Below, one piece after another: positions 6,312 through 25,259 of a DNA stretch of 64,000 bases. The stretch covers positions 1 to 64,000 of the forward strand of contig CALGKA010000096.1 in assembly GCA_937927895.1 (NCBI GenBank), in the 5' to 3' direction. Positions within the stretch are counted from its first letter, which is position 1. Every line of letters begins with the position of its first letter. Under the pieces are notes generated by a model that was given only the letters and a program-made list of their open reading frames with translations, was not told the origin of the DNA and ran no database searches. Source of the stretch: an uncultured Granulosicoccaceae bacterium. Its GTDB lineage: Bacteria; Pseudomonadota; Gammaproteobacteria; Granulosicoccales; Granulosicoccaceae. Position numbers and translations under genes: made by a program.

Positions 6312-7700
6312 TTAGTTAGCAGCCAGTAGAATGGCAGCTGAAAGTGCCGCCACCATTAAGCTGGCCCGATCCTTAATTGCAAATATTAGTGGATCTTCGT
6401 TTACCTCACCCCGGTTTGCCAGAATCCATAGCCGACCCAGCCAATAAGTCAGTAGTGGGAATAAAAACCATATGACTTTTGGGTGACTGTAGTACTGCGT
6501 TATTAGCGGGCTATTAATATACAAGCCCATAATAAACACACTCATATAGCCCAGTGAAATGCCAATAATTCTAACGGGTGCCATATCTTCTACACGGTAG
6601 CCACGCCCGCGTGCGGCAAGTTTTTTTTGAGTCTTCAAGCTATGTAGCTCGGCATAGCGCTTTACCATGCCAAGGCTTGAAAACAGAAATATTGAAAAGC
6701 TTAATAGGTAGAACGATAGTTCTGTGTCAATTGCGGCTGCGCCACCGATTACTCTAAGAGTGAACATACCTCCCAGAGAAACCACATCTATCATTAGTTT
6801 GGTCTTAAGGTACAGCGAATAACTGATAGTAAGAAGCAAATAACATAACAGCACAAGTGCTGAAGATGGTGGAAGAAAAAAGCTGCCGACTGCTGCCACG
6901 AGTAGAAGGGTGAGTGCAATGAACATACCTTGCTTAGCGCTAATAGCTCCGCTTGCAAATGGTCGATTGCGCTTAATTCGATGTGCCCGATCCGATTGTA
7001 GGTCTAACAGGTCATTAACAATATAGCCAAAGGAGGCGACTGCAGAAAAACAAAAAAACATAATAATTGAATTTCTTAATGCTTCTGGGTTTGAGAATTG
7101 TTGTGAGGTAATGATTGGCACAAAGACCAGTAGATTCTTCAACCATTGATAAGCCCGCAATGTTTTTAGTGCAGGCTTTAGTCCGCCGCTTTGCGTTGCA
7201 AAGTGTGAAGTAAAGTTTGTAGGGGTAGAAGTGCTTGTAGACACTAAGTAGCGCGCGCTTGAGCCGTTCCAAACCGCTTGTGAGGTTTTATCGCTGCCAA
7301 TGTAGTCGTAGTTTTTTACATCCAAAAGAGCGGCGCTGGTGTCGATTATTTCATCGAAAATGTTTTTGTCCGATAAAATTTCATGGATGCTGTTTGCAGG
7401 TTCTGTTGTATCAAGAGCTATGCGCCTGCCTTTTGATTTTTCGTTTTTTAGAAACTCATAGACATCAAGGTTGAGGGGTATTTCAAAGCGACTAACGGAA
7501 GTATCCGCACGCTCCGATTTTAGTCGCTGACGATCAAGCTTTGACGATAACAACCTTTCGAGCTTATTTTTTATCCGGTGTAAGAATCGTTCGGATTTTA
7601 AATCTGTCTTGAGCAAAGCGCCTTCGAGCGCGCACAGCAGGATATTCTGGGGATCAGGATTTGGCAACCAGAGCGACTCCGCAAACGATAAGTGACACAC
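6312..7700 (-). CDS. UbiA-family polyprenyl-phosphate transferase with degenerate HAD-like N-terminal domain
   Basis: Integral membrane prenyltransferase resembling decaprenyl-phosphate phosphoribosyltransferase (DPPR synthase). Residues ~1-155 look like a HAD phosphatase that has lost its catalytic motif: the expected DxDGT is ALEGA at 24-28. Residues ~175-462 form the multi-helix UbiA domain, with the signature NDxxDxxxDRxHxxKxxRP at 229-247. The GTG start at 7698-7700 overlaps the upstream small membrane protein gene by 47 nt; a TTG at residue 12 preceded by GGAG is an alternative. It probably makes polyprenyl-phosphoryl-5-phosphoribose for the DprE1/DprE2-like enzymes encoded divergently at 9.3-11.3 kb; that is inference from context. 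Confidence 0.82.
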   Translation of the reverse strand: MCHLSFAESLWLPNPDPQNILLCALEGALLKTDLKSERFLHRIKNKLERLLSSKLDRQRLKSERADTSVSRFEIPLNLDVYEFLKNEKSKGRRIALDTTEPANSIHEILSDKNIFDEIIDTSAALLDVKNYDYIGSDKTSQAVWNGSSARYLVSTSTSTPTNFTSHFATQSGGLKPALKTLRAYQWLKNLLVFVPIITSQQFSNPEALRNSIIMFFCFSAVASFGYIVNDLLDLQSDRAHRIKRNRPFASGAISAKQGMFIALTLLLVAAVGSFFLPPSSALVLLCYLLLTISYSLYLKTKLMIDVVSLGGMFTLRVIGGAAAIDTELSFYLLSFSIFLFSSLGMVKRYAELHSLKTQKKLAARGRGYRVEDMAPVRIIGISLGYMSVFIMGLYINSPLITQYYSHPKVIWFLFPLLTYWLGRLWILANRGEVNEDPLIFAIKDRASLMVAALSAAILLAAN

Positions 7701-8327: not shown

Positions 8328-9302
8328 TTGAAGCACATAATCACTGGTGGGGACGGGTTCCTCGGAACTGAGCTAGCCAAAAAACTGGTTGCGCGTGGCG
8401 AAAAAGTACTCGCGATTGATATTAAAAAAACTGACTCGCCGCATTACGCTGATATCGATTTTATGAAGGTCGATATCACCGACAAAGAGGCGCTTAGAAC
8501 TATACCGGTTGACGACGACGATATTGTCTATCACTTTGCGGCCAGGCTGTTAGTACCCATTATAAAGCGTGCGGAACGTCACGAGTATTTCTGGAGTGTG
8601 CTTTATTATGGCACTGAGTACTTATTTGATTATTTAGAAACAGAGACCGGCTGCCGAAAGGTGATCTATTACACCACTGACATGGTGTATGGCCATACGG
8701 TAGAAAATCCACGCCCTGAATCCCACCCGCGTGTACCCGTCGGGCCTTATGGCGATGCCAAGTACCATTCTGAATTGCTTTGTGAAAAATACCGTGAGCG
8801 TGGTTTCAATATCACCATATTTAGACCGCGGTTGATTATAGGGCCTGGTCGATTAGGCATACTGGAGTCGCTGTTTAAATTAATTGATAAAAACTTACCG
8901 GTACCCACTATTGGACACGGTTTGAATTTCTACCAATTTATATCAGTAAGTGATTGTGCGGAAATATGTGTAGCGGCTGTTGCGAAAGGACTTCCGAATG
9001 AAGCCTACAATGTCGGTTCGCTAAACCCGCCAACGGTACGGAAATTACTAAAAACACTAATAAAATCGGCAGGTAGTAAATCAATAGTGGTGCCTACTCC
9101 TGCGTTTGCGGTTAAAGCGGTATTAGCAGGGCTTGATAAAATCAATAGGCCATTGCTTGACCCTGAGCAATATTTAATCGCTGATGAAACCTGTGTGCTA
9201 TCAATGGAGAAAGCTAAGCGTGAGCTTGATTGGGAACCAACAGATAGTGACACTGATATGTTAAATGCGGCCTATCATTCATGGAAAGATTCGCAAGACT
9301 AG
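8328..9302 (+). CDS. NAD-dependent epimerase/dehydratase (extended SDR)
   Basis: Extended short-chain dehydrogenase of 324 residues acting on a nucleotide sugar; substrate unknown. Rossmann motif GGDGFLG at 7-13, catalytic YGDAK (Tyr141, Lys145), and TTDMVYG in place of the usual SSxxVYG. The start is TTG at 8328, which places the beta-strand HIITGG correctly at the N-terminus. Its stop lies 17 nt before my preferred start of the DprE1-like gene, so the two are probably co-transcribed. It could supply a sugar donor or act on the pentose chain, but the sequence alone does not say. Confidence 0.82.
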   Translation: MKHIITGGDGFLGTELAKKLVARGEKVLAIDIKKTDSPHYADIDFMKVDITDKEALRTIPVDDDDIVYHFAARLLVPIIKRAERHEYFWSVLYYGTEYLFDYLETETGCRKVIYYTTDMVYGHTVENPRPESHPRVPVGPYGDAKYHSELLCEKYRERGFNITIFRPRLIIGPGRLGILESLFKLIDKNLPVPTIGHGLNFYQFISVSDCAEICVAAVAKGLPNEAYNVGSLNPPTVRKLLKTLIKSAGSKSIVVPTPAFAVKAVLAGLDKINRPLLDPEQYLIADETCVLSMEKAKRELDWEPTDSDTDMLNAAYHSWKDSQD

Positions 9303-9319
9303 TCGCAGCCTATTTCATT

Positions 9320-10600
9320 ATGAATGATTCATGGGGCAACCTTTCTAAAGCTACGCAAGCGCAAAGTAATTTGGTTTGGCGGTCAGACTCATTGCCAGCT
9401 ATGCAAAATAAGTTGGTGGTTGGCAATCGCCGGAGCTACGGTGATGTATGTGTCAATGATGGCGGTACTATCTTTGACGCGACCGGCTTGAATAAATTTA
9501 TATCATTTGATAAGGCTACAGGTGTCGTGCGTTGCGAAGCTGGAGTAACCTTATGGCAGTTGGCAAAGATTGCCGTGCCGCACGGATGGTTTCTGCCGGT
9601 TACCCCGGGTACGGGTTTTGTTACCATAGCAGGTGCAGTCGCTAATGATGTGCACGGAAAAAATCATCATGTTGCCGGTAGCTTTGGTTGTTATGTAAAG
9701 CGATTTGAGCTGCGTCGATCCAACGGCGAGGTGCTTATATGTAGTGAAACAGAGCACACTGATTTCTTTGCCGCCACCATCGGGGGTTTGGGCTTAACAG
9801 GGTTTATTGCTTGGGTTGAAATTGCGTTAAAGCCGCTGCACCATTCTTTAATGGCGGTAGAGTCGGTGTCCTACAGCAGTTACAAAGAGTTCCTTACGCT
9901 ATCCGCTGAATCTGAAAAAACACATGAATACTGTGTGTCATGGATAGATTGCCTAAGTGATGCTGGGCAAGGTGTTTTCTTTCGCGCTAACCACGCGCAA
10001 GAGGGTGGCTTAGGTAACAACTTCAATACCTCAAAGCGCCGTGTACCCGCCTTCGTCGGTGCAGGTTTTCCATTGGTTAATCGTTTAAGTGTAAAACTAT
10101 TTAATGCGGCATACATTCGTGCGCATTCAGGCGATAAACAATATACAGAAACTATAGCTAAGTTTTTCTATCCGCTGGATTCAGTGCTGAACTGGAACCG
10201 CATTTACGGGCGAAAAGGATTCTACCAATTTCAGTGTGTTGTGCCTTTTGAAAGTGCAGAAGTACTCAGTGAAATGTTGGCGCGAATTGCTGCCTCTAAT
10301 CAAGGGTCATTTTTATCTGTATTAAAAACAATGGGCAGTATTAAATCACCCGCATTACTGTCTTTTTGTAGGCCTGGTGTGACGCTTGCGTTAGACTTCC
10401 CTAATCGTGGTGATAAAACAAAACAGTTAATAGCAACTTTAGAAAAAATAACGGTTGCAGCAGGTGGTGCTATTTACCCTGCCAAAGATGCAATGATGAG
10501 CAGTGAAACTTTTGAAAAATCATTTCCTAAGTTAACTGAATTTGTAAAGTTCATTGATCCAGAGTTTTCTTCTAGTTTTTGGCGACGAGTGCGTGCTTAA
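9320..10600 (+). CDS. DprE1-like FAD-dependent oxidoreductase (decaprenylphosphoryl-ribose 2'-oxidase family)
   Basis: Flavoprotein of the VAO/FAD_binding_4 family, very like mycobacterial DprE1, which oxidises C2 of polyprenyl-phosphoryl ribose. With ATG at 9320 it has 426 residues. Motifs: GNRRSYGD (35-42), AGVTLWQL (74-81), VPVTPGT-type segment (~92-98), DVHGKNHHVAGSFG (~110-123), LGLTG (157-161) and the C-terminal Lys389 in AKD, matching the essential lysine of DprE1 as I recall it. The frame extends to an ATG at 9281, but that overlaps the previous gene; the 9320 start puts the family SWG motif near the N-terminus. The residue aligning with the drug-reactive Cys387 of the tuberculosis enzyme is Ala357. 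Confidence 0.87.
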   Translation: MNDSWGNLSKATQAQSNLVWRSDSLPAMQNKLVVGNRRSYGDVCVNDGGTIFDATGLNKFISFDKATGVVRCEAGVTLWQLAKIAVPHGWFLPVTPGTGFVTIAGAVANDVHGKNHHVAGSFGCYVKRFELRRSNGEVLICSETEHTDFFAATIGGLGLTGFIAWVEIALKPLHHSLMAVESVSYSSYKEFLTLSAESEKTHEYCVSWIDCLSDAGQGVFFRANHAQEGGLGNNFNTSKRRVPAFVGAGFPLVNRLSVKLFNAAYIRAHSGDKQYTETIAKFFYPLDSVLNWNRIYGRKGFYQFQCVVPFESAEVLSEMLARIAASNQGSFLSVLKTMGSIKSPALLSFCRPGVTLALDFPNRGDKTKQLIATLEKITVAAGGAIYPAKDAMMSSETFEKSFPKLTEFVKFIDPEFSSSFWRRVRA

Positions 10601-11338
10601 GTGAAAAAATTACTCATACTTGGTGCGACTTCAGGCATCTCTCAAGCCTATCTTAATCGGGTTGCTGATCAGTGCGAGCATATTGTGTTAGTCGCGCGCA
10701 GCGCAGAAAAGCTAGCGCTGCTATCAGCGCATGTAAGCGCAATTTCCAAAGCCACAGTTACGACGCTTGTGGTTGATCTAGCGAGCACCGAAGAGCATCA
10801 ACAATTAGTTGAAAATGTGGTAACAGCAATGGGTTCTATAGACTGTGCACTGGTATCTTATGGCGTGCTAACAGATCAAGCGCGTTGCGTAAATGACCCG
10901 GCATATGCTATGGCGCAATTTAATCTTAATGGTACAAGTACAGTGTCTTTGAGCTTGAATTTAGCTAATCAACTTGCAAAGCAGGGTGGTGGTAGTTTGG
11001 CAGTTATAGGTTCAGTGGCTGGAGACCGCGGTCGACGAAGTAATTATTGTTACGGTGCTGCAAAAAGCGCTGTAGATAGTTTCCTGGCCGGCCTGCGCAG
11101 TGATATGCAAAAACATAAGGTTCATGTTCTCACTGTAAAGCCTGGTTTTGTTGATACGCCAATGACCAGTGATTTTAAAAAAGGTGCACTTTGGGCTAGC
11201 GCTGACAAAGTAGCTGCTGATATTGATACTGCGATAATTAAGAAGAAAAGTGTTTTGTATACTCCTTGGTTTTGGCGATACATTATGTTGATAATAAAAA
11301 GTATTCCTGAATTCATTTTTAAAAAACTTCCACTATAG
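10601..11338 (+). CDS. DprE2-like SDR reductase (polyprenyl-phosphoryl 2-keto-pentose reductase family)
   Basis: Classical SDR of 245 residues: cofactor motif GATSGIS (8-14), catalytic Ser138, Tyr151 and Lys155 (YGAAK). A membrane-proximal hydrophobic C-terminus ending in ...FIFKKLPL is typical of DprE2, which reduces the 2-keto intermediate to polyprenyl-phosphoryl arabinose. The GTG start at 10601 follows the DprE1-like stop with no gap, the arrangement expected for two enzymes that work as a pair. Reaction is inferred from pairing and similarity. Confidence 0.85.
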   Translation: MKKLLILGATSGISQAYLNRVADQCEHIVLVARSAEKLALLSAHVSAISKATVTTLVVDLASTEEHQQLVENVVTAMGSIDCALVSYGVLTDQARCVNDPAYAMAQFNLNGTSTVSLSLNLANQLAKQGGGSLAVIGSVAGDRGRRSNYCYGAAKSAVDSFLAGLRSDMQKHKVHVLTVKPGFVDTPMTSDFKKGALWASADKVAADIDTAIIKKKSVLYTPWFWRYIMLIIKSIPEFIFKKLPL

Positions 11339-11359: not shown

Positions 11360-12067
11360 GTGAGTCAAAGCAATCACATAAAAAGTAACCCACCAAAAAG
11401 CTCTTCAGCTGAACAGAAAGTTGCTGTCTTTGATCTCGATGGCACTATTACTTACCGTGATACCTATATAGAGTTTCTACTCTTTTGCCTCAGGAAACGA
11501 CCGGTTCGTGTTTTAAGAGGTGGTGCGTTGCTGCTCTACTATTGTGCCTATAAGCTTGGCTTCAGAAGCAATCACTGGTTAAAAGCAAAGTTTTTAGGAG
11601 CAGTCGCTGGCGGCTTAGGTGGGGAGCGCCTCAAAAGCCTGTGTGAAGACTTCAGCGAAAAAACGGTAAAAACCAACATTAAGCCTCGGGCGATCGATGA
11701 ACTAAAACGACTAAAGCAAAAAGGCTATGTTTTAGTGCTTGCGACTGCGAGTTTTGAGTTTTATGTAGCGCAATTATGTGATGCGTTGGGTATGGATCAT
11801 CTGCTTTGCACTAAAGCAGAATTGGATGGTGGAGGGTGTATTACTGGTGAATTAGACGGTAAAAATTGTATTGGAGCAGAGAAAGGGCGGCAGCTTGAGG
11901 AGCTTAAAAAAGAATGCCGATGGTTAGAGATTAGCAGGGCGTATTCAGATGATAAAGTTGATCTACCTCTATTTCAGCTGGCAAGAGTAGCTTTGGTCGT
12001 TGATCCAAAAGAGGCAACCAAAAAAGTGGCTAGCGAAAAGGGGTATACCGTACTTCTTTGGCGTTAG
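11360..12067 (+). CDS. HAD-IB family phosphatase, candidate lipid-linked phosphoribose phosphatase
   Basis: 235-residue HAD hydrolase with an intact nucleophile motif FDLDGT (Asp25, Asp27), a helical cap segment (~35-90), motif II LATAS (~131) and motif III/IV SDDKVDLPL (~200). GTG start, 21 nt after the DprE2-like gene and the last gene of the run. Removal of the 5-phosphate from polyprenyl-phosphoryl-phosphoribose is the step otherwise missing from this cluster, and the UbiA-fused HAD domain upstream looks dead, so this enzyme may do it. A serine-phosphatase-like or unrelated role is possible. Confidence 0.8.
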   Translation: MSQSNHIKSNPPKSSSAEQKVAVFDLDGTITYRDTYIEFLLFCLRKRPVRVLRGGALLLYYCAYKLGFRSNHWLKAKFLGAVAGGLGGERLKSLCEDFSEKTVKTNIKPRAIDELKRLKQKGYVLVLATASFEFYVAQLCDALGMDHLLCTKAELDGGGCITGELDGKNCIGAEKGRQLEELKKECRWLEISRAYSDDKVDLPLFQLARVALVVDPKEATKKVASEKGYTVLLWR

Positions 12068-15805: not shown

Positions 15806-16789
15806 CTAGCTGCAGGGATAAATAATATTCTCATCTATAAAATTGGCTAGTTCTTTATGTACTATGTTCAAGCATTCTTCTTCTGTATCTTCGCCGAACG
15901 ACACTTGCGACTGATGTTCTGTCAATGGCATGGCAAATAACTTTTCCTCTGGGTAGAGCGTTACCATTTTTTTGAAAAATGGTTTAGGTAGTCGAAACGC
16001 CCCATAGCTAACTGAGTGAATAATGGTCGGATCTATTGATTCGAAAATACTTGAAAATAGATCGCGGTATTCTGACTTAAGTGTTGTGGTGTAAATTATG
16101 GGGTCAAATCGTAAGCCGATCTTCCAGCCCTGATTTTGAAGCTTCTTCATGGCCAGAATTCGTTTCTGTACAGATGGCACTTTATGCTCAAGTGCTTGTG
16201 AAATATTTTCCGGGGTAAAGCTAAACGCTACAACGCAATTGTTAATCGCGGGTTGGCTTAGAAGGCCGCGTATCTGAGTGCTTTTTGTGCGAATTTCCAG
16301 GTTAGCGTTGGGCATATCCCTAAAGCGTTCCAGTGCAAATTGCATAAAACCAGTTACCGGTTCAAACGCTAAGCTGTCGCAATCGTAGCCAGAAAAAAAC
16401 CATGCGCCGTCGGTGTTTTCTGTAGTACTTTGAATTTCGGATAAAAAGTCTTCGTAGTTTACGAACACCACGTAATTAGCTGATCGATACATGCCTTGTA
16501 AGAAGCAATAACGGCAGTCGTATACGCAATTCAACATATGCGAGAAGTAGAAATTACTGTCCCCTCCAATTCCATAATCCGGCGGTGTCGGTAGCACATG
16601 GCCTTTGTGCTTGTTCGCCAGAATTAGTGAAGGTTGTTGCTTTTGAAGTCTAAAGTTTTGGGAGTTGCTATTAAATACGCTGGTATATCGCTCGCAACTG
16701 ATTAGAGCTGCGTTTGGGTAGCGCTGACAAATTTCAAGTGTTCTGGGGTGTTCGCGAATGCTGTCTTCTATGTAGATTGTTTGAATCAT
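15806..16789 (-). CDS. SPL-family radical SAM protein (spore photoproduct lyase-like)
   Basis: 327-residue radical SAM enzyme with the cluster motif CVYDCRYC (Cys88, Cys92, Cys95) and the N-terminal layout of the spore photoproduct lyase family. Nothing in the window suggests sporulation. By eye the SPL hydrogen-donor cysteine aligns with Tyr135, with Cys137 close by in GYDCDSL, so it may not repair spore photoproduct. Its ATG overlaps the stop of the nucleosidase-like gene by four bases, so the two are probably made together. True substrate unknown; DNA repair of another photolesion is possible. Confidence 0.8.
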   Translation of the reverse strand: MIQTIYIEDSIREHPRTLEICQRYPNAALISCERYTSVFNSNSQNFRLQKQQPSLILANKHKGHVLPTPPDYGIGGDSNFYFSHMLNCVYDCRYCFLQGMYRSANYVVFVNYEDFLSEIQSTTENTDGAWFFSGYDCDSLAFEPVTGFMQFALERFRDMPNANLEIRTKSTQIRGLLSQPAINNCVVAFSFTPENISQALEHKVPSVQKRILAMKKLQNQGWKIGLRFDPIIYTTTLKSEYRDLFSSIFESIDPTIIHSVSYGAFRLPKPFFKKMVTLYPEEKLFAMPLTEHQSQVSFGEDTEEECLNIVHKELANFIDENIIYPCS

Positions 16790-17604
16790 ATAGAGTGGCT
16801 CGCATTGTTCACTGACTGATTAAGCCAGCGGAGAATATCTTTGCTTGAGCCTTTGTGACTTAGCTCATCAGGTATTGCTGTCATCGGTTCAAGTAGCACG
16901 TTGTAACGTTGAAGCAGCCTTTCCAGTATTACTTTCTGTGAAGCGCTGAACTTCCATTTTTTTGTAAATTCTTCGCTAATGCTTGTATCCAGAGTATTCA
17001 AAGAGTTCGCAAGTTCTTGCAGATGATCCATAAAAAGTAAAATTGAAGATAGATTATCTTGTATTAAACTGCCTGCGAGGTGTGTATCAATTTTAGTAAA
17101 CGGTTGATCTGCATTATCTGAAACTACTTTTATACATTGTACCAATTCGGCGTAAGAGAACATTCTTGCGGTCTCTATAAAGCCACTGGCTTCCATGTCG
17201 TGTAACTGATTTGGAATGTAGGTGGTTAGAGGTTTGTCTACTGTGATTAAATTTTCTGATTCAAGCGGTGGAGAAACGCGTGGCGGATACCAAACCTTGT
17301 CGCAACCATGGTCAAGTACTTTATGTGCTGTAAAAATAGTCCCGATAGCGGCATCAAGGTGACCGGCGATACCAATATTTAGCCAGCAGCCAGATTTGTT
17401 CTGGTGATTGTTAACCGATGTTGGTGCACCCAGTCCACCTAACCAGGCACTGGCTGCTGCTGCACGGCATTTGCCAATGCCACTAATAATGAGTGAAACC
17501 TGATCTTTTTTATAGAATGGGAAGGGCGCAGGTTCGTGCTTGAGTTTTAATTCTTCAATTAAAGGCTCAGCCTCAGTTTTTGTTGCCAGTACAAGATTTA
17601 GCAC
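16786..17604 (-). CDS. nucleoside phosphorylase / MTA-SAH nucleosidase-like protein
   Basis: 272-residue member of the PNP/UDP phosphorylase superfamily. The early glycine motif SGIGK (41-45), the core strand NIGIAG (76-81), the ribose-contacting Met137-Glu138 in HDMEASGF and a catalytic-type Asp163 in VSDNAD all fit the nucleosidase fold. The last ~70 residues (coiled and charged) extend beyond the usual domain. GTG start, overlapping the GT2 gene by 7 nt and the SPL-like gene by 4 nt. One idea is clearance of 5'-deoxyadenosine made by the radical SAM partner; this is inference. Confidence 0.75.
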   Translation of the reverse strand: MLNLVLATKTEAEPLIEELKLKHEPAPFPFYKKDQVSLIISGIGKCRAAAASAWLGGLGAPTSVNNHQNKSGCWLNIGIAGHLDAAIGTIFTAHKVLDHGCDKVWYPPRVSPPLESENLITVDKPLTTYIPNQLHDMEASGFIETARMFSYAELVQCIKVVSDNADQPFTKIDTHLAGSLIQDNLSSILLFMDHLQELANSLNTLDTSISEEFTKKWKFSASQKVILERLLQRYNVLLEPMTAIPDELSHKGSSKDILRWLNQSVNNASHSI

Positions 17605-18455
17605 ATTGGTGACTCGGGCTTAATGGAGCTTTCGTACCTGTGTAGAATGCTTTGGCATTCTTCGGCTAATGATTCATTCGTGTGTTTTATAGCGCCTGTG
17701 AGTAAAATGCGCGTTTTAGTTACTAGCATTTCTATTGTTTTATTTCGTTTATCTTCGCTTAGTTTCTCCGTGTTAAGTAAATTTTGTAGGGCCTGAATTC
17801 TAAATCTGTCCATGCCCCAATATTTTCTAGAGAGCTGGTCTTGGTGACCACCATATTTTATTAGTAACGGTTGATCTAAAAAATGAACTTCATGATTGGC
17901 GCATATTCGAAGCCATAGGTCATAGTCTTCGCATGCAGGTAATGACTCATCAAATTGTCCAACGGAATCGAGAAGATATTTATTTATCAGTGTAGATGAT
18001 GGAGAAATAGCGCACAGTGGCAGGCATTGATCAAAAATATCACCGCCCGATTTTTTATGCTTCTTCATCGGATTGACGCGTACACCGTTGCGAATCCATA
18101 TTTCCTCGGTGTGGCACAATACACAGTCTTTATTTGTTTTGATTAAATCAACCTGGCACTTGAGTTTATCTGGTAGCCATTCGTCATCTGAGTCGAGTAG
18201 TGCAATCCAGTCTTCTTTTGCTTTTGCAAGGCCTGTGTTTCGAGCCGCACTGACGCCTGCATTCGTTTGGCTATACAGCGTGATTTGATCGGCGTACCGG
18301 TTCTGCAGAAGGTGCGCGGTGTCATCGGTAGAGCCATCATCAATAATAATAATTTCAGTTGCACGGTAGCTTTGCGCCAGCGCGGAATCGATAGCACGAC
18401 ATAGCACCGGCCAGCGATTAAAAGTTGGGATGATTACAGAGACGCCTATCGTCAT
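17598..18455 (-). CDS. family 2 glycosyltransferase
   Basis: GT-A fold inverting glycosyltransferase of 285 residues: N-terminal VSVIIPTFNR, nucleotide-binding IDDGSTDDT (38-46), NAGVSAARNTGL (65-76), DSDDEW (88-93, metal/UDP contact) and an acceptor-site EDYDLWLR (~175-182). No transmembrane helix. ATG start; first gene of an overlapping three-gene minus-strand unit with the nucleosidase-like and SPL-like genes. Donor and acceptor are unknown; proximity to polysaccharide genes suggests a surface glycan, while the overlap with a radical SAM gene suggests something else. Confidence 0.88.
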   Translation of the reverse strand: MTIGVSVIIPTFNRWPVLCRAIDSALAQSYRATEIIIIDDGSTDDTAHLLQNRYADQITLYSQTNAGVSAARNTGLAKAKEDWIALLDSDDEWLPDKLKCQVDLIKTNKDCVLCHTEEIWIRNGVRVNPMKKHKKSGGDIFDQCLPLCAISPSSTLINKYLLDSVGQFDESLPACEDYDLWLRICANHEVHFLDQPLLIKYGGHQDQLSRKYWGMDRFRIQALQNLLNTEKLSEDKRNKTIEMLVTKTRILLTGAIKHTNESLAEECQSILHRYESSIKPESPMC

Positions 18456-18658: not shown

Positions 18659-19648
18659 ATGAAATTTAAAGATTATTACAAGATCCTCGGCGTTAGTGAT
18701 TCGGCAAATTCGGACGAGATAAAGCGTGCTTATCGCAAAAAAGCGCGCCTATATCATCCTGATGTTAGTAAAGAGTCAGACGCTGAAGAGAAATTTAAAT
18801 CTGTTAATGAGGCCTACGAAGTACTGAAAGATAAAAACCGCCGCGCTGAATTTGATCAATTAAAAAAGCATGGTTTTAGGGGTGGTGATGATTTTCGGCG
18901 TCCTCAAGGGTGGCAAGGTGACTGGAACTTCAATCCCGGTGCTGGCTCGAGTCGTGCCGGCGGGGGCAGTGCTGATTTCAGTGATTTCTTTGAATCTATA
19001 TTTGGTGGCGGTGGTTTTGATGGTTCTGGTGGATTTGCCGGTGCCGGTCGGGCAGGTGGTCATGGCGGTGCGCAATATCGAACGGCAGGTCGGCACTCAA
19101 AAGGTGACGATATCCGCTTGACCGTGCGCGTGTCACTTGAGAATGCCTACCGTGGTGGCAAGACGAAAATAAAAGTCCCGGCATCCGTTGGATATGAAGA
19201 CAAGATCCTGAACGTGAGTATTCCAGCAGGCGTGGTCGACGGTCAGCAGCTTAGGTTGCGTGGTCAGGGCAGGCCTGGTGCCAGCAATGGTGATCTGGTG
19301 TTGACTATAAAGCTAAAGCCGCACGATCTATTTTCGGTAGATGGCGCTAACATCACTTTAAATTTGCCCATTACACCAAGTGAAGCTGTGCAGGGCGCTC
19401 AGGTGCAAGTACCAACGCTCAGCGGTAAGGTGAATCTTAAAATTCCACCGAATACGGCAAGTGGCGCGCGATTTAAAATTAAAGCGCGAGGCCTGCCGGC
19501 AGCACCCAACGGCGATCAAATAGTGGTGGTGCAGATTGCACTGCCCAGCACGCTTACCGATAGTGATAAAGCAGCACTTAAGTCGATGGAATCAGGCTGG
19601 GACTACAACCCTCGTGTGCACTTTGATACGGCAGATAACTCTAAGTAA
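18659..19648 (+). CDS. cbpA: CbpA-like DnaJ co-chaperone
   Basis: 329-residue type II Hsp40. J domain at ~5-70 with HPD at 33-35, a Gly/Phe-rich linker (~75-150, many GGG and GGGGFDGSGGF-like runs), then the two beta-sandwich C-terminal domains. There is no zinc-finger (CxxCxGxG) region, so it is CbpA/DnaJB-like rather than true DnaJ. It would stimulate DnaK ATPase. ATG at 18659, single gene with a hairpin after its stop. The CbpA modulator gene cbpM is not next to it. Confidence 0.9.
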   Translation: MKFKDYYKILGVSDSANSDEIKRAYRKKARLYHPDVSKESDAEEKFKSVNEAYEVLKDKNRRAEFDQLKKHGFRGGDDFRRPQGWQGDWNFNPGAGSSRAGGGSADFSDFFESIFGGGGFDGSGGFAGAGRAGGHGGAQYRTAGRHSKGDDIRLTVRVSLENAYRGGKTKIKVPASVGYEDKILNVSIPAGVVDGQQLRLRGQGRPGASNGDLVLTIKLKPHDLFSVDGANITLNLPITPSEAVQGAQVQVPTLSGKVNLKIPPNTASGARFKIKARGLPAAPNGDQIVVVQIALPSTLTDSDKAALKSMESGWDYNPRVHFDTADNSK

Positions 19649-23576: not shown

Positions 23577-25259
23577 CTAATTTGACTTCGTTGGATCGTC
23601 GCGTAGATGCCGATTTTGTCGTGCAGGCATAGCAGTATTGGCAGGTGGTTCCCGGGTGTACTCTGTAGCCGTATGCGCGGGCTGTTTGGCCACTGTGGTT
23701 GAATTTGCGGATGATACCCTAAGCTCTGGTGGTTGGTGCAGGCGCAGCCATCGGGGTGGCGGGTTGTTACTATTGGATGCGCAATCTGACTCAAGCGTTT
23801 GAAATAGTGTATCGGCACTGGCTAGCGGGATGGAAATCGCACCCGTATAAAGCAACGCAAGTAAACGTGTGTAGGCGATTTTATGCGTTTGCTCTGTGGT
23901 GGCAAAGAGCCAATCTGAAAGAGCCATGAAACGCGTAAACGGAGCGTCACCCAGTAACACTGGAAGGGTCTGTGTGAATCTGCCGGAGTTAGCGATCAGA
24001 TCCCAGTAGCGGGCAAATCTTTGTACTCTTTGCATGGTATCGAAACTGATATCACGATTTTTAAGCAATTGATAAGGCGCTTCATCGGAATAGATCATTT
24101 GAAATTCAGCGGTTTGTTTAACAATCGGGCTGCCGCGCAATCTCTTCAGTAGCCCTAGTTGAATTTCATGTGGGTTCAAGCTAACGAGTTGATCAAAGCC
24201 ATCAGCAAAGCTTTCAAGGTTTTCACCGGGTAAGCCAAATATTAGATCTGCGTGAATATAGGCATGCGAGTGATTACGCAGCCATTCAATGTTGGCGAGT
24301 GTTTTTGCAATGTTTTGACGTCGGCTAATCGTTTCTTGTACGGTAGTGTTAAAACTTTGAATACCAATTTCAAACTGCAAAGAGCCAGGTGGGAATTTTT
24401 CTATTAAGTTTTTTAGTGCATCAGGCAGTTTGTCTGGAATAACTTCAAAGTGTAAAAATAGATTCTGATCTGTGGCAATAAGCTTTAAGAAAAATTCTAA
24501 AATGGCAGTGCAGTTCGAAATTTTAAGGTTGAACGTGCGATCAACAAACTTATATTGCCGGGCCCCTCTTAGGTATAGCGTGTTGAGTTCTTGTAAAAAT
24601 GTATCTAGTGCGAATGGCCATGCTGTTTTATCTAATGCAGATAAACAAAATTCGCATTTAAACGGACAGCCACGCGATGCCTCTACATACAACACTCGCT
24701 GCTTAATATCTTCATCGTTATAGAAAGGGTAGGGTGTGGCCAGTTTGTTTACGTCGGGGTTGGGTGCTTCAATGACTTTATTAAGCATTGAAGCTTGCGT
24801 GGAATCAATAGACTCTTTTATAAGTTGCTGGCAAGTATTGGCGAACGCAATATCTGCCTGCCCTGTGATTAGATGGTCACAATGCTCAAATATAGCGGTA
24901 TGCTCGTATTCGTAGCTAACTTCGGGGCCACCAATGACTATTTTAATGGCTGGATTAAGCTTATGTAAAAGGGCGACAAGTTCAGTGGTTTCTTTGATGT
25001 TCCATATATACACACCAAAGCCAATAATCATTGGTTCAAAAGCCAGTAGCTTCTCTGCGATATCGTTAGTGCGTTGATTGATTGTGAATTCTATCAGCCG
25101 AGTGCTTTCGTGCAGTGGGCCCATGTTGGCCATTAGATAACGTAGGCCAAGAGACGCGTGAATATATCGTGCGTTTAAGGTGCACAATATAATGGCGTCT
25201 TGTTTCGAGAAGTTTAACCTTATCGGCGTATGAAAAGTGACAGGGGCAGTGTTAGTCAT
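23577..25259 (-). CDS. B12-binding-domain radical SAM protein (DUF4080-type)
   Basis: 560 residues. An N-terminal cobalamin-binding-like Rossmann domain (~20-150, IIGFGVYIWNIKE and IVIGGPEVSYEYE) precedes the radical SAM core with cluster motif CPFKCEFC (Cys198, Cys202, Cys205) and IGIQSFN. A helical C-terminal DUF4080 region follows, ending in a low-complexity tail (~500-560) rich in Asn, Pro, Thr and Arg. The DxHxxG cobalamin-ligand motif is not seen, as in many proteins of this branch. ATG start, alone between an aminotransferase gene (95 nt upstream) and the GlsB-like gene. Substrate unknown. Confidence 0.82.
   Translation of the reverse strand: MTNTAPVTFHTPIRLNFSKQDAIILCTLNARYIHASLGLRYLMANMGPLHESTRLIEFTINQRTNDIAEKLLAFEPMIIGFGVYIWNIKETTELVALLHKLNPAIKIVIGGPEVSYEYEHTAIFEHCDHLITGQADIAFANTCQQLIKESIDSTQASMLNKVIEAPNPDVNKLATPYPFYNDEDIKQRVLYVEASRGCPFKCEFCLSALDKTAWPFALDTFLQELNTLYLRGARQYKFVDRTFNLKISNCTAILEFFLKLIATDQNLFLHFEVIPDKLPDALKNLIEKFPPGSLQFEIGIQSFNTTVQETISRRQNIAKTLANIEWLRNHSHAYIHADLIFGLPGENLESFADGFDQLVSLNPHEIQLGLLKRLRGSPIVKQTAEFQMIYSDEAPYQLLKNRDISFDTMQRVQRFARYWDLIANSGRFTQTLPVLLGDAPFTRFMALSDWLFATTEQTHKIAYTRLLALLYTGAISIPLASADTLFQTLESDCASNSNNPPPRWLRLHQPPELRVSSANSTTVAKQPAHTATEYTREPPANTAMPARQNRHLRDDPTKSN

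Follow-up and report, generated by a model that had tools for sequence, protein, structure and literature searches.

A conserved operon of an SPL-fold radical SAM enzyme, an MTAN-like nucleosidase and a GT2 glycosyltransferase as a candidate biosynthetic module

Radical SAM (rSAM) enzymes, adenine-releasing enzymes and GT2 glycosyltransferases are known to act in series in the synthesis of C35 hopanoids, through HpnH, HpnG and HpnI respectively, and the enzyme converting ribosylhopane into BHT is still unidentified in this route (PMC12583986). The first-pass annotation of the locus described here stated that these three families have no known common pathway, a statement which the hopanoid route contradicts. 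In the arsenosugar pathway, the radical SAM enzyme ArsS adenosylates arsenic (reviewed in PMC12159101), while in aminoglycoside deoxygenation the radical SAM dehydratase AprD4 is paired with the NADPH-dependent reductase AprD3 (PMC5461906). Spore photoproduct lyase (SPL) is the rSAM enzyme closest in fold to the one studied here: its C141 (Bs) donates a hydrogen atom, Y99 and Y97 (Bs) restore the 5'-dA radical and SAM, and in C. acetobutylicum SPL the catalytic cysteine is found at another position (PMC5368176).

In the window (the whole stretch of DNA that was analysed, 64,000 nt), which belongs to a 4.55-Mb draft genome with Granulosicoccaceae (Gammaproteobacteria) as its closest named relatives, ORFs for a GT2, a nucleosidase and an SPL-like rSAM form an exact overlapping trio, transcribed in that order (Table 1). 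The reading of the ORF coordinates bore out the two overlaps and the common strand reported for this trio, and the three family calls also held against Pfam profiles and AlphaFold/Foldseek models.

Table 1. Coordinates of the trio, its overlaps and supporting observations in the window
Feature	Position	Strand	Observation
GT2 family glycosyltransferase	17598..18455	-	285 aa, operon gene 1; PF00535, 28 orthologues aligned
MTAN-like nucleosidase	16786..17604	-	272 aa, GTG start; catalytic-residue alignment, AlphaFold/Foldseek
SPL-fold radical SAM enzyme	15806..16789	-	327 aa; CX3CX2C cluster motif 16505-16528
GT/nucleosidase gene overlap, 7 nt	17598..17604	-	identical overlap at L031, L035 and L036
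Nucleosidase/rSAM gene overlap, 4 nt	16786..16789	-	identical overlap at many orthologous loci

The trio is flanked by a divergent DnaJ/CbpA-like gene, starting at 18659 beside the GT end, and by a convergent solute-binding protein gene on the rSAM side. Exopolysaccharide genes (Wzz/tyrosine kinase, UbiA and DprE1-like) are located nearby. Among these, a UbiA-type prenyltransferase whose N-terminal stretch is HAD-like (6312-7700, minus strand), a DprE1-resembling FAD-linked oxidase (9281-10600, plus strand), a DprE2-resembling short-chain dehydrogenase/reductase (SDR; 10601-11338, plus strand) and a HAD phosphatase-like ORF (11360-12067, plus strand) suggest a polyprenyl-phosphoryl-ribose to arabinose pathway within the exopolysaccharide cluster, and several of the ORFs between 6312 and 12067 have orthologues near the module elsewhere in the window's genus. 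A B12-binding radical SAM protein with DUF4080 is also encoded in the window (23577-25259), and its link to the trio is not obvious.

The rSAM protein matched the SPL family in Pfam (PF20903, E=6e-17), but scored far below the cut-off of the SPL equivalog model TIGR04070 (84.8 bits against 400). Its AlphaFold model (pLDDT 90.8) has the SPL fold over the whole chain (Foldseek match 4fhg, TM 0.85, E=2e-18), with other folds reaching a TM of about 0.5 or lower. In the 80 class-A rSAMs that were compared, the cysteines of the CX3CX2C [4Fe-4S] motif (C88, C92 and C95) and the residue corresponding to SPL Y97 are kept throughout, whereas the position of the hydrogen-donating cysteine C141 is invariably a tyrosine (Tyr135) and that of Y99 is a phenylalanine in 79 proteins and a tyrosine in the remaining one. 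C137, adjacent to the position of the SPL catalytic cysteine, is kept in 79 of the 80. In the alignment with B. velezensis SplB, the module rSAMs have lost the KYKWGRYGIGKYVY-type hairpin of SPL, all of them showing a gap at the RYKWGRYGIGKYIY-type stretch of SplB; this stretch we take to be the DNA-contacting beta-hairpin near the C terminus of SPL. Unlike SplB, the module rSAM is encoded in a metabolic-looking operon and not alongside SplA. Photoproduct repair is unlikely for an enzyme that lacks the DNA-wedge hairpin, the catalytic cysteine and one of the relay tyrosines, which disfavours the idea of DNA damage reversal put forward in the first-pass annotation. With the C141-Y99-Y97 relay broken, SAM is probably consumed by the class-A enzymes, in keeping with the presence of a nucleosidase dedicated to adenine release.

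The nucleosidase falls slightly under the Pfam cut-off for PNP_UDP_1 (E=8e-5), while Foldseek identified its AlphaFold model (pLDDT 92.2) as an MTA/SAH nucleosidase (MTAN; E=5e-11). The fold matches comprised MTANs, the H. pylori futalosine hydrolase and Chlamydia CT263, the last showing the highest target-normalised TM (0.74) among the matches listed. Three residues aligned with the MTAN catalytic residues (E11, E138 and D163) are invariant and are presumed to have the same roles as in MTANs. Although the fold and the catalytic Glu/Glu/Asp set are shared with MTAN, MqnB and CT263, the module nucleosidase lies under every NCBIfam cut-off and carries an additional helical C-terminal domain (residues ~205-272, 16789-16992), which is present only where a class-A rSAM occurs. 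From its model, the protein is predicted to be of the adenine-cleaving MTAN type and not a DNA glycosylase.

The GT matched Glycos_transf_2 (PF00535) with E=2e-34 and 119 bits. Its LDSDDEW (DxD, ~18183-18194) and CEDYDLW motifs are kept across the 28 orthologues, with D88, D90, D91, E176 and D177 (the GT-A DxD and the catalytic acidic motif) invariant, and a mean column identity of 53% makes it an unusually conserved GT2. Matches in the PDB were GT2 chondroitin synthase domains, and a protein search in plasmids returned generic GT2s only.

Surveying one genome per species gave 202 encoding loci, and 80 of these were read; the loci are distributed over Gammaproteobacteria, Acidobacteriota, Myxococcota and Verrucomicrobiota. 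A partial module also occurs in Fusobacteriota. Within Gammaproteobacteria the trio, usually accompanied by a reductase, is conserved in approximately 30 families, and it extends to several further phyla. Sixty-eight independent loci have enough upstream sequence for a nucleosidase gene, and in 61 of them it immediately precedes the rSAM; the GT adjoins the nucleosidase at 33 of 65 loci with room. Close rSAM orthologues were found in 44 of the 48 listed genomes of the window's family (G000-G047) and scattered elsewhere in the class. A tree of 45 rSAMs intermingles phyla, in part with support (one starred pair joins Myxococcota to Gammaproteobacteria), and horizontal transfer of the rSAM gene between phyla is possible, but not proved, on the basis of these sequences. 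At two loci from Legionellales-labelled MAGs (L081:6723-7181 and L093) a small phosphatase-like ORF is located between GT and nucleosidase.

Downstream of the rSAM, most lineages carry an SDR, or sometimes an aldo-keto reductase (AKR). At no fewer than 47 of 79 loci an SDR comes after the rSAM, a conservative count given that long ORF starts mask some cases; neither its catalytic YxxxK nor its cofactor glycines vary. The first-pass annotation had overlooked this reductase partner. An AKR replaces the SDR beside the rSAM at L158, L160, L063 and L079, and the exchange of one reductase family for the other suggests that the conserved step is carbonyl reduction. A search with the SDR profile found no orthologue in the window's genus.

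Two types of gene fusion were identified. In G122 and G249 (loci L157 and L159) an N-terminal nucleosidase is fused to a C-terminal GT in a protein of ~493 aa, and an AKR gene adjoins the rSAM. In Fusobacterium vincentii (L174) a 623-aa nucleosidase-rSAM fusion, which has a tyrosine at the SPL Y99 position, is followed by an SDR-like gene. The record concerned (NZ_CP084075.1) is labelled as a plasmid, but at 2.1 Mb it is as large as a complete chromosome and the label is probably wrong.

The rSAMs themselves fall into three classes. The nucleosidase is full length (~270 aa) with class-A rSAMs and short (~190-200 aa) with class-B rSAMs, which have an N-terminal extension of their own. This pattern of presence and absence stands. 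A "domain swap", in which the class-B N-terminal region would correspond to the C-terminal domain of the nucleosidase, seemed plausible on visual inspection but is not claimed, since hhalign gave it a probability of only 7%. The class-B proteins (~411-476 aa; L150:6953-8383, L161:4311-5642 and L164-L170) have the SPL family as their sole Pfam match; they carry an additional CC pair and, at the C terminus, a long extension also present in class C (L158).

Co-occurrence independent of linkage was measured within Gammaproteobacteria, by running profiles of the rSAM, nucleosidase, GT and SDR (A1 to A4) on 274 genomes. The rSAM was present in 47 genomes when the three variant classes were pooled, and in 37 for class A. 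The nucleosidase was detected in 43 of these 47 genomes and in one of the 227 others (Fisher p 2e-44, relatedness ignored), and the GT gave identical counts and the same p-value under the same condition, the one exception being G315 in both cases; the SDR was found in 31 of the 47 and in none of the 227 (Fisher p 2e-29, relatedness ignored). G122 and G249, which carry the third rSAM class, were tallied as lacking a separate nucleosidase, theirs being fused to the GT. Nine genomes have GT and nucleosidase without a class-A rSAM, of which eight have the longer class-B protein; the ninth is G315, a bin that is 90% complete. The association also holds where the genes are not neighbours: GT and rSAM are far apart or on separate contigs in G016, G048, G099, G118, G123 and G247, the rSAM has no adjacent nucleosidase or GT at L041, L066, L070, L076 and L097 with both encoded elsewhere in the genome (the genome of L097, G323, is apparently identical to G225), and in G319, G320 and G322 the nucleosidase remains beside the GT with the rSAM relocated. 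Among the rSAM carriers, the profile searches did not detect the nucleosidase in G098, the GT in G113, G244 and G295, or either of them in G106 (82% complete), and no GT was detected in the Fusobacterium record; given such carriers, the minimal unit may be smaller.

Taken with the gene order conserved across families, this co-occurrence agrees with the undescribed system proposed in the first-pass annotation: the trio extends beyond close relatives to other phyla, and its genes were not found in separate conserved neighbourhoods. No description of the module was found in the searchable papers, and its novelty is provisional.

The hopanoid route offers a close functional parallel, sharing the rSAM, nucleosidase/phosphorylase (HpnG) and GT classes and a proposed succession of adenosylation, adenine removal, polyol formation and glycosylation (PMC12583986). 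However, the module rSAM is SPL-fold and not HpnH, whose profile did not match it, and in the window's genome no protein scored above the HpnH cut-off. A place for the module within the hopanoid pathway was rejected, since HpnH co-occurs with it at the level of chance (above cut-off in 6 of 47 carriers and 29 of 227 other genomes; odds ratio 1.0). The arsenosugar pathway likewise combines radical SAM adenosylation with a GT family named for it, TIGR04283, but the module rSAM does not match the ArsS model and the module GT scores 56.6 against the TIGR04283 cut-off of 182. AprD4/AprD3 resembles the module in pairing an rSAM with an NADPH-dependent reductase (PMC5461906), yet there is no sequence match and aminoglycoside genes were not seen nearby.

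We propose that the module is biosynthetic and attaches and processes a SAM-derived sugar on an acceptor, a reading to which we give nearly, but not quite, an even chance; the module would probably make a sugar-decorated molecule and not repair DNA. Its acceptor, reactions and their order are inferred, as follows. The SPL-fold rSAM would cleave SAM, the 5'-deoxyadenosyl radical joining an acceptor to give an adenosyl adduct; the MTAN-like nucleosidase would then hydrolyse this adduct at its N-glycosidic bond, so that adenine departs and a ribosyl adduct bearing a free aldehyde or hemiacetal remains; an NAD(P)H-dependent carbonyl reductase (SDR, or AKR in some lineages, with none identified in the window's genus) would convert this into a polyol; and the GT2 would add a sugar to a hydroxyl. 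That this represents a new pathway of rSAM adenosylation and deadenylation, built on a repurposed SPL-fold enzyme, standing beside hopanoid, futalosine and arsenosugar synthesis and making a glycosylated metabolite or lipid derived from the ribose of SAM, is possible and put forward tentatively. As HpnH, MqnE and ArsS are not close relatives of the SPL-fold enzyme, the adenosylation chemistry is proposed by analogy only.

MTANs also clear 5'-deoxyadenosine, which would be useful to any SAM-consuming rSAM. The rSAM could alternatively oxidise, dehydrate, epimerise or deoxygenate a sugar or small molecule at the expense of SAM, with the nucleosidase only clearing inhibitory 5'-deoxyadenosine, the SDR or AKR reducing the keto product and the GT transferring the modified sugar. 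We consider this main rival less likely than not, although several observations agree with it: 5'-deoxyadenosine is an inhibitor of rSAM enzymes that nucleosidases can hydrolyse (PMC6079011), the AprD4/AprD3 pair provides a documented precedent for the rSAM and its reductase (PMC5461906), a GT and an SDR would suit the tailoring of a sugar, C137 could be a hydrogen donor, and the nucleosidase-rSAM fusion fits the removal of a by-product. On the other hand, the rSAM resembles SPL in fold and not AprD4 in sequence, and a scavenger would be an odd partner for fusion to a GT, or for staying with the GT in the three genomes in which the rSAM has moved. The nucleosidase-GT fusion is easier to explain with a nucleosidase that takes part in making the product than with one that only clears 5'-deoxyadenosine, and together with the nucleosidase-GT operons it favours the adenosylation pathway, not decisively. 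The earlier suggestion that the nucleosidase acts on the rSAM product, be it 5'-deoxyadenosine or an adenosylated intermediate, still stands, and the fusion proteins strengthen it.

Modification or damage reversal of nucleic acids, in which the rSAM would act on DNA or RNA like SPL and the GT would glycosylate the modified base, draws on the full-length SPL fold and on the joint conservation of rSAM and GT, but appears unlikely in view of the substituted C141 and Y99 positions, the deleted hairpin and a nucleosidase of the MTAN type. Moreover, an occurrence across most of the window's family does not resemble that of a defence or DNA-modification island, and none of the four proteins searched matched a PADLOC model, a result on which an anti-phage defence identity was also rejected. 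Finally, exopolysaccharide genes do lie near the trio and GT2 genes are common in such regions, so that a chance, lineage-specific operon of unrelated genes might be considered; this is highly improbable, being refuted by the co-occurrence of unlinked genes and countered by the two fusions and the gene order conserved across many families and phyla, in part even in Fusobacteriota.

For a large group of SPL-like proteins in bacteria not known as spore-formers, the module provides a function-linked gene set, and the result argues that the SPL-like proteins of module carriers are not DNA-repair enzymes. If the adenosylation reading is true, many marine Gammaproteobacteria, Acidobacteriota and Myxococcota would have a new pathway, which in Fusobacterium would operate without the GT. 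About one sixth of the sampled Gammaproteobacteria genomes carry the module, and given this carriage its product, which may be a lipid, could be widespread.
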